From positions 20,524 through 67,852 of the forward strand of contig NZ_JYFN01000039.1 in assembly GCF_000948395.1 (NCBI RefSeq): a stretch of 47,329 nt of DNA. The letters run 5' to 3'. Below the pieces are notes generated by a model. That model was not told the origin of the DNA and did no database searches. It saw only the letters and a program-made list of their open reading frames with translations. The translations under genes were made by a program, and so were the position numbers. Shown piece by piece: positions 34,205-36,780 of this stretch. Position 1 is the first letter of the stretch. Each line of letters begins with the position of its first letter. The DNA is from Frankia torreyi (GTDB lineage: Bacteria > Actinomycetota > Actinomycetes > Frankiales > Frankiaceae).

Positions 34205-35734
34205 CTAGCCGTGCCCGCGCCGGCCGAGGACGAGCAGCCCCACCAGGGGCAGCCGGATCAAGACGAGCAGCCCGCCGCGTTTTCCCGCCCCGGCCGGGAC
34301 CGGTTCGTCGCGGTCCGCCGCGGGAGGGGTATCGGCCCCGGAACCACCTCCACCGAGGAATCGGTCCGTGCCGGGGCCGCGCAGGCACGCCGGAAGGCGG
34401 CCCGGTCGGCTGCACGCCAGGGCGAAGCGCCGGCCGGCCGTGCACGCCACGAGCAGCTCCGCGCGGGCGTCGACATCGAGCATGTCGTAGTGCTCCCGGG
34501 CGTACGCGTGGGCGTCTGCCCAGGTCGTCGTCGGTGGGAGCCACGCGGCGACGGCCGCGAACCCGGCGCGGAAGCCGGGGGTCCGCGCCAACGCGGGCCA
34601 GTGCTCGACCACTACCGACCGGCGCTTGTCGATCAATGCCGCGCGGGTCGCCTCGATCCGGTCCGTGGCGAAACCGGGCGGTGGGCCGTCTCCCGCCGTG
34701 AGCGCCCGGACCAGTGCGATCTGCCCGGCAAGTAGCTCCCCGTCGGCCCGCGCGTCGGCCGGCTCCAGACCCGCGCGGGCGGCCCCCGTCTCGGATCCCC
34801 TCCCGGCCCCCGTCCCGGATCCCGGCACCGATCCCGCCCCGCTCGCCGCCGCGCCGGTCGTCGTGCTGATCGCTGTGCTGATCGCTGTGCTGATCGTCGC
34901 GCGGGTCAGGCCCGCGGCGCGGGTGACCGCGTCGAGCTCGGCATGGAACTCGGCCACCGGCGGCAGGTGGGTGTCCCGTTCCAGCAGGCAGGGCAGCGGG
35001 CCCGGCCAGTGGTCGACGGCGGTGCGCAGCAGCTCGAGGACCTGTGGGCGAACCGGGTGGGCGTGCGAGTCGTGGTACAGGCCGCCGGCGGTGACGCCGC
35101 CGGCGACGTGCAGGTAGGCGACCCGTTCCCAGGGGATGGCGGCCAGGAACCGGTCGGGATCGGTGCCGTGGTTGACCACGTCGCCGTACAGGTTGGCGAC
35201 GTCGAGCAGCAGCATCACCCCGGTCTGCTCGGCCAGCTCGGTGAGGAACGCCGCGGAGTCCAGCTCGTCGTCGGGCCAGCGCAGCAGCGCCGCCGGGTTC
35301 TCCACCGCGAGCGGAACGGACAGCTCCGCGCTCAGCGACCGGATGTTGCGCGCCAGCACCCGCAGCGCCGCGCGGGTACGCGGCACCGGCAGCAGGTGCC
35401 CGGCCTCGACCCCGCCGGCCCGGACGAACGCGGCGTGCTCGCTGACCAGTGGGGCGTCCAGACGCTGCGCGACACGGACGAACCGGTCGACGCGGGCGCG
35501 GTCCAGCGGCTCGCTGCCCCCCAGCGACAGCCGGACGCCGTGCGGCACCATCGGCACGTCCAGCTCGGTCAGGGCGACCGGCAACGGCCGGTCGGGGTCG
35601 ACGCTCTCCGCGATCAGTTCGACGAACGCCAGGTCGCCACGCTCGGCGATCGCGGCGGCGAGGGGCGGGCGCCAGCCCACCCCCAACCCGGGTGGCAGCG
35701 GCGAAGTCGGTCGGGACGGTCGGAGCCGGGCCAT
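34205..35734 (-). CDS. DUF692 / MNIO-family iron enzyme with C-terminal extension
   Basis: 509 aa from the ATG at 35734-35732, which overlaps the upstream stop (TGATG). The GGAGG for this start lies inside the last Gly codons of the upstream gene. Residues about 12-280 are a DUF692/MNIO TIM barrel (the MbnB/TglH family of multinuclear non-haem iron oxidases that modify cysteines in peptides). Candidate metal ligands: H65 (PHGVRLSLGG), E99-H100 (SEHAAF), H113, E145 (ENPAALL), D178 and N181 (LLDVANLY), H209 (LHVAGG), D222, H224 and H226 (HDSHAHP), E252 (LLERD). A repeat-containing linker (ISTA x3) leads to a helical C-terminal domain (about 345-450: RSVVVEHWPALA, TTTWADAHAYAREHY) and a short hydrophobic end. 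Core homologues are about 280-300 aa. The substrate is probably the Cys tail of the coupled upstream gene (inference). Confidence 0.88.
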   Translation of the reverse strand: MARLRPSRPTSPLPPGLGVGWRPPLAAAIAERGDLAFVELIAESVDPDRPLPVALTELDVPMVPHGVRLSLGGSEPLDRARVDRFVRVAQRLDAPLVSEHAAFVRAGGVEAGHLLPVPRTRAALRVLARNIRSLSAELSVPLAVENPAALLRWPDDELDSAAFLTELAEQTGVMLLLDVANLYGDVVNHGTDPDRFLAAIPWERVAYLHVAGGVTAGGLYHDSHAHPVRPQVLELLRTAVDHWPGPLPCLLERDTHLPPVAEFHAELDAVTRAAGLTRATISTAISTAISTTTGAAASGAGSVPGSGTGAGRGSETGAARAGLEPADARADGELLAGQIALVRALTAGDGPPPGFATDRIEATRAALIDKRRSVVVEHWPALARTPGFRAGFAAVAAWLPPTTTWADAHAYAREHYDMLDVDARAELLVACTAGRRFALACSRPGRLPACLRGPGTDRFLGGGGSGADTPPAADRDEPVPAGAGKRGGLLVLIRLPLVGLLVLGRRGHG

Positions 35735-36780
35735 CACCCCCCGCCTCCACAACCCCCGCCGCCGCACCCTCCGCCGCCGCATCCCCCGCCGCAGCTACCC
35801 CCTCCGCCGCAACTACCCCCGCCGCCGCAGCCGCCACTCGAGGTGGTGTCGAGGCTTCTTCTCGATCGGGCGGTGCCTCGGGGTCGCGGCCGAACGGCGG
35901 GCGCGAGCAGCCCGAGCTCGGTGGCCAGTTTCCGGTCGGCGCCGCCGAGCGCCTCCGGTCCGAACAGCGCGACCGCGAGCGCATGCTGCCCCGGCAGACC
36001 GCCGCCGGCCAGTCCGGGCAGGCGCCGCCGGGCCTCGACCGCCACCGCCCACCCGGCCGCGGTGGTCTGCGGCGTCTGGAGGCGGACGCCGAGAACGAGG
36101 GCGCCGACCTCGCCGAGCGACAGCACGAAGACGGCGCTGCCGTCGGGCGAGCCGACGTCCGCCACCAGCAGGATGATCCCGCCGACGAACAGGGCCAGCG
36201 CGGCGGCCCGGCACCAGCGCAGCACCCGCTTCTGCCGGACGGTGGGCAGGAGCCCCTCCTCGCACAGCCGCTGGCGCGTCGCGGCCAGCGCGGGGGTGCC
36301 GGCGAGCCACCGACCGAGCTCGGCGATGCGGCGCCCGCCGTGCGCGTCGATCTCCTGGTGGATGGCGCAGCGCAGATCCTGATCCGCGCAGACCGCGGGG
36401 CGACGGGAGATCACGGTCCCCGGGGTGGCGCCCGGCCCCACGGCTTCCGATTCGTTGAGCGCGACCACCGCGACCAGCGCCGCCAGATCCGGGCCGCCGT
36501 CGAGCAGGGCCAGCTCCTCGGCCTGCTCCGGCCGCGGTCCCAGGCCGTCGGCGTCGAGTCCGAAGCGGTCGACGACCGATCTGGGTGCGGTCAGGCGAGT
36601 CGCGGCGCGCCCCCTTCTCGTGCCGTCCCCGTCGGTGCCGTCTCGCCCGGCGTCGCCCGCTCCCATGCCGACCCGGTCGGGGGCGGGCGCGGGTGCGCCG
36701 CGCTGGGCCGCCCGCCACGCGGCCCACGTGCCGATCCACAGGACGATCACCAACGCGACATAGCCGATCGCGATCACCAT
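35734..36780 (-). CDS. TIGR04222-like membrane protein with Gly/Cys-rich C-terminal tail
   Basis: 348 aa. ATG at 36780-36778 is chosen because gaggag sits 9 nt upstream; a longer start at 36804 is possible. One helix at residues 3-22, a cytoplasmic-type loop with a Glu/Leu-rich helical region (EQAEELALLDGGPDLAALVA), two more helices (about 191-208 and 217-234), then AVALFGPEALGG, which resembles the TIGR04222 'near low-complexity' domain. The last 34 residues consist almost only of Gly, Ser and Cys, with Cys at 318, 324, 330, 334, 339 and 344 spaced by 3-5 Gly/Ser. The last Gly codons contain the ribosome-binding site of the MNIO gene. It looks like a membrane-tethered substrate protein for that enzyme, possibly for metal binding; this is inference. 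Confidence 0.8.
   Translation of the reverse strand: MVIAIGYVALVIVLWIGTWAAWRAAQRGAPAPAPDRVGMGAGDAGRDGTDGDGTRRGRAATRLTAPRSVVDRFGLDADGLGPRPEQAEELALLDGGPDLAALVAVVALNESEAVGPGATPGTVISRRPAVCADQDLRCAIHQEIDAHGGRRIAELGRWLAGTPALAATRQRLCEEGLLPTVRQKRVLRWCRAAALALFVGGIILLVADVGSPDGSAVFVLSLGEVGALVLGVRLQTPQTTAAGWAVAVEARRRLPGLAGGGLPGQHALAVALFGPEALGGADRKLATELGLLAPAVRPRPRGTARSRRSLDTTSSGGCGGGGSCGGGGSCGGGCGGGGCGGGGCGGGG
35737..35838 (-). repeat. Gly/Cys repeat tail (putative modified peptide region)
   Basis: The region encodes about 34 residues of (G)3-5-C or GGGGSC repeats ending directly at the stop codon. On the plus strand it reads as runs of ccgcc/ccccgcc. Six cysteines occur at near-regular spacing, with no other reactive side chain except Ser. 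Confidence 0.85.

Follow-up and report, generated by a model that had tools for sequence, protein, structure and literature searches.

In the 47,329-nucleotide stretch of Frankia torreyi DNA analysed here (the window), two adjacent genes of the minus strand were found to encode a TIGR04222 membrane protein, which ends in a Gly/Ser/Cys tail, and an MNIO (DUF692) enzyme fused to a partner-like domain. We consider it probable that the two genes form a cassette in which the MNIO, together with its own partner domain, would oxidise the Cys residues of the Cys-Gly tail and thereby produce a cytoplasmic tag that stays fixed to its carrier. The enzyme was tracked by the tail and not by the carrier, as the same tail was found on unrelated proteins beside the same enzyme clade. 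That the modification takes place, and its chemistry, its metal and its physiological role, are what we infer from the gene pair and its relatives. The pairing of MNIO and TIGR04222 was already published as a prediction, and the carrier swap is what the relatives add to it.

Organisation of the gene pair

The first gene (positions 35734..36780 of the window, minus strand) encoded a protein of 348 aa, which matched TIGR04222 with 82.6 bits against a cut-off of 43 and thus belongs to that family. In this protein the predicted helices covered residues 2-26, 181-208 and 216-233. The AlphaFold2 model had a pLDDT of 76.5, and no match to it was found in the PDB by Foldseek. The last 34 residues (residues 315-348; 35737..35838, minus strand) were Gly, Ser and Cys, and are the predicted modification target on the basis of the translation, the codon pattern and the relatives. 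The six tail Cys that the initial annotation had placed at residues 318, 324, 330, 334, 339 and 344 were found at exactly these positions in the translation, and each was followed by Gly. The second position of the tail codons was invariant (entropy 0), the third position was free (1.75 bits), and all four Gly codons were present. The fixed second position and the free third position argue for selection on the protein and not for a bare DNA repeat. Motifs of three TGYGGNGG units were as frequent in the genome as a reversed-pattern control (23 occurrences each), so the argument for the tail rests on its frame, position and conservation. Other Gly/Cys tails sought in the Frankia genome by this DNA pattern were rejected, as the matches equalled the reversed control in number. 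The strongest candidate outside the window, in the same Frankia genome (G000:C91:31261-31343, locus L210), was a 15-bp tandem array, one frame of which reads CGGGG; it was set aside as a tandem repeat with no convincing tail protein.

The second gene (34205..35734, minus strand) encoded a protein of 509 aa, which matched the MNIO/DUF692 family PF05114 with 251.5 bits against a cut-off of 25, and its AlphaFold2 model had a pLDDT of 86.9. The MNIO TIM barrel covered residues 16-274 (34913..35689, minus strand), and Foldseek matched the MNIO model to 3bww, to TglHI (8hci/8hi7) and to MbnB (7fc0/7tcr). The candidate iron ligands H65, H100, E145, D178, N181, H209, D222, H224 and E252 were invariant in 58 relatives. 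The candidate base D254 was likewise invariant in the 58 relatives, and its motif suggests that it is the counterpart of Asp249, the published catalytic base of FonB. An MNIO TIM barrel with a full set of candidate ligands, as the initial annotation had read it, was therefore present. The barrel was not bare, however, and residues ~328-505 (34220..34753, minus strand) were found to form a second conserved domain.

In the model, this partner-like domain contained six helices and three beta strands, with a helical bundle at residues 328-431. Its homologous 87-aa core was present in all 77 of the 77 sampled loci of the window MNIO clade, fused to the MNIO in 37 and encoded by a separate next gene in 40. 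The position and domain order of the domain fit a PME-type 2 partner; the comparison of its profile with six DUF2063 proteins encoded in bufferin operons gave an hhalign probability of 0.3%, which is not significant. A PDB search with the domain profile returned nothing reliable, and no match to DUF2063 was found anywhere in the whole genome.

The two genes are coupled by a TGATG stop/start overlap (35732..35736, minus strand), and their earlier description as a coupled minus-strand pair (34205-36780) was exact. In the window sequence, argC was divergent from the TIGR04222 gene and pheT was convergent with the MNIO gene. A search of the genome found a single TIGR04222 and a single MNIO, which are the window pair. 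The closest named relatives of the genome were Frankia sp. QA3 and F. gtarii. The pair had been taken as inserted between pheT and the arg operon; as a private event this was rejected, because the pheT-argC slot contained the cassette in many Frankiaceae and was empty or held a decayed cassette in others. No copper gene was found near the pair. No protease or exporter was seen beside the pair, but the earlier statement that no leader, protease or exporter lay nearby overlooked the partner-like domain that the enzyme carries as a fusion.

Co-occurrence of the two families and carriers of the tail

The co-occurrence was counted in 296 Actinomycetes genomes, with TIGR04222 taken over the cut-off. 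TIGR04222 was found in 81 genomes, MNIO in 75 and both in 61 (p = 5e-32, a descriptive value that ignores the kinship of the genomes), and the two genes were adjacent in 53 of the 296. Both the co-occurrence of DUF692 with TIGR04222 and the neighbourhood of the two genes that the initial annotation expected across relatives were thus present. Cys-tailed TIGR04222 was found in MNIO genomes in 48 of 50 cases, versus 35 of 55 for the tailless form (p = 3e-5). One exception (G101) had an MNIO end at a contig edge (locus L120), and the other (G180) looks like a spurious frame. Cys-tailed TIGR04222 was therefore essentially confined to MNIO genomes. One further genome (G017) contained an MNIO locus without a tail protein, and a Cys-tailed TIGR04222 was present elsewhere in that genome.

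MNIO loci without TIGR04222 were found to contain the Gly/Cys tail instead on short one-helix proteins or on a soluble protein. The one-helix carriers were present at seven loci, and more distant ones at another three; those read from end to end were ~80-120 aa long. The soluble carrier, found beside the MNIO at two loci (L167 and L168), was ~450 aa long, had no hydrophobic segments and gave no Pfam or NCBIfam match. In three genomes (G030, G033 and G021; three sites), a one-helix carrier filled the pheT-argC slot itself. In the MNIO tree, a quick tree with support by SH-aLRT only, the one-helix label required three or more changes on starred branches, and the loci with the soluble carrier formed one clade. 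The description of the product as membrane-anchored held for the window locus, but not for the relatives in which the same tail was on the soluble protein.

The tails of the different carriers were alike in their Cys pattern. Gly came directly after Cys in 224 of 257 instances in the TIGR04222 tails and in 55 of 57 in the tails of the other carriers, and the spacing of the tail Cys was usually 4-7 residues across carriers. The Cys-Gly preference agrees with the strong need of FonB, a 5-thiooxazole maker, for a small residue after Cys, where only Gly or Ala was tolerated (PMC13097082). Since the enzyme follows the tail across unrelated proteins, the tail is the likely target, and we are fairly confident that it is the substrate of the MNIO. 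Should the enzyme recognise the tail itself, the isolated tail and the small one-helix carriers would be tractable substrates, and the action of MNIOs on proteins as well as on peptides would become directly testable.

Predicted position of the tail and alternative readings

The AlphaFold model of the TIGR04222 protein contained three transmembrane helices only. In 46 of 56 TIGR04222 proteins, the positive charge after helix 3 was higher than that of the external loop, and in 34 of 56 the positive charge before helix 2 was higher than that of the loop between helices 2 and 3. In nine representative one-helix carriers, the N side of the helix had 0-1 positive residues and the C side 4-7. When the established positive-inside rule is applied to the charge pattern of the carriers, this pattern, the three-helix model and the soluble carriers together point to a tail in the cytoplasm, and on these predictions we hold the cytoplasmic side to be likely. 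There the tail would be within reach of the MNIO, which has no signal peptide. A cytoplasmic tail differs from the prediction of Antoine et al. 2025 (PMC12452194), who place the tail in the periplasm; the same pair would then present its modified Cys residues in the periplasm or outside, as in bufferins. The conserved hydrophobic stretch 266-273 could form a fourth helix in some members and so favour export. In the AlphaFold model of the window protein, however, this stretch was an 8-residue helix inside the confident fold. The charge bias of both the TIGR04222 proteins and the one-helix carriers, and the lack of an export topology in the one-helix and soluble carriers, also argue against an exported tail, which we regard as unlikely.

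The cassette is dispensable. The pheT-argC slot was empty in three Frankia genomes, with ~75-150 bp between the genes, and in two others (G010 and G006) it contained a decayed cassette with deletions in both genes. In G010 (L176, ~1140-2178, upstream of argC), the TIGR04222 N-terminus was found to run straight into an MNIO fragment. In G006 (L177, 1554-2300), a deletion fused the Gly/Cys tail to what is left of the partner domain and most of the MNIO was gone; a second MNIO, apparently N-truncated, was present elsewhere in that genome (L191). A TIGR04222-MNIO-partner cassette with signs of tandem TIGR04222 copies was found in a plasmid record of Tsukamurella tyrosinosolvens (NZ_LR134462.1).

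The Cys tail was also found to be lost where the enzyme was kept. One Streptomyces clade (96* support) retained the MNIO and the partner domain with a TIGR04222 without the Cys tail, usually beside DUF4142. Eight loci of the Streptomyces type (family f18) contained an MNIO-partner fusion, DUF4142 and a Cys-less TIGR04222. In F. gtarii (L062/L020), the TGATG coupling and the MNIO were intact and the tail (~3330-3380 of L062) contained no Cys, for which a repeat collapse in the draft assembly is a possible cause. The rule that ties the tail to the enzyme is therefore not absolute, and the earlier expectation that the enzyme would never be kept without the tail failed in this clade and in F. gtarii. 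The same two cases favour another reading, in which the tail, left unmodified, would serve as a metallothionein-like metal or redox element, with the MNIO acting elsewhere, on another part of the protein or on a peptide in trans. However, Cys-tailed TIGR04222 was almost never found without an MNIO, and the tail followed the enzyme across unrelated carriers, which leaves this reading little probability. A tail serving as a RiPP core, which an unlinked protease would cut off for export as a small metallophore, with the carrier only as leader, would match the characterised MNIO products, which are RiPP peptides (PMC12452194, PMC13097082), but it is improbable with no protease or exporter seen beside the pair and with carriers of 348 aa, or soluble ones of 400+ aa, as unusual leaders.

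The modification of the neighbouring Cys tail by the MNIO, which the initial annotation had proposed, fits the co-occurrence and the carrier swap, but the Cys-less Streptomyces clade and F. gtarii speak against a strict link. In this mechanism, the MNIO would be a di/tri-iron oxidase with a built-in substrate-binding partner domain, and the oxidation would occur at the Cys of the Cys-Gly motifs in the flexible Gly/Ser/Cys tail at the C-terminus of the TIGR04222 protein. The product would most plausibly be 5-thiooxazoles, as in captophorins and bufferins, although we give this product about an even chance. It would be a tag fixed to its carrier and exposed at the membrane on the cytoplasmic side, with no released peptide, and the tag would probably bind a soft metal (copper); a role of the cassette in copper biology is a tentative and rather doubtful suggestion. 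On a wider reading, which we put forward with some reserve, the Gly/Ser/Cys tail may be a portable cytoplasmic tag, and one MNIO-partner clade may modify unrelated carriers to give metal-binding heterocycles that are permanently bound to proteins, and not RiPP peptides. A cytoplasmic, protein-bound thiooxazole tag would, if true, be a new use of MNIO chemistry.

Comparison with known MNIO systems

In the literature search, a single paper was found on TIGR04222 together with MNIOs. Antoine et al. 2025 (PMC12452194) reported more than 3,500 TIGR04222 proteins, mostly from Actinomycetota, with frequent MNIO neighbours and Cys-bearing Ser/Gly C-terminal tails, and some of these proteins were proposed as MNIO substrates. 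The description of the system as undescribed could therefore not be kept, as Cys-tailed TIGR04222 proteins are given there as putative MNIO substrates. The window locus contained a Cys-bearing, Ser/Gly-tailed TIGR04222 directly beside an MNIO gene, and it thus belongs to the published group of predicted substrates. The membrane family, the Ser/Gly/Cys tail, the adjacent MNIO, the occurrence mostly in Actinomycetota and the predicted substrate role are common to both. PME-type 2 partners were reported in at least 10% of the MNIO-TIGR04222 clusters, whereas here none of the sampled loci of the clade lacked the partner-like domain. Neither an MNIO-partner fusion nor a tail on one-helix or soluble carriers is described in the available part of that paper, and both were seen in our study.

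The bufferins and captophorins (BufB, HvfB, FonB; PMC13097082) resemble the window system in the homologous MNIO with its conserved ligands and candidate base, in Cys-Gly sites 4-7 residues apart and in the need for a partner protein. However, the window enzyme scored 182.4 bits against 310 for BufB and 148.2 against 360 for HvfB, and was thus under both NCBIfam equivalog cut-offs. The window system also contained no signal peptide, no DUF2063 partner and no DoxX, and its predicted substrate is the C-terminal tail of a larger protein. Two other systems, TglHI (pearlin) and MbnBC (methanobactin), are similar in the TIM barrel, as found by Foldseek, in Cys-directed oxidation and in the presence of a partner protein, whereas they differ in their small peptide precursors, in their separate partner subunit and in sequence, with an identity of ~20%.
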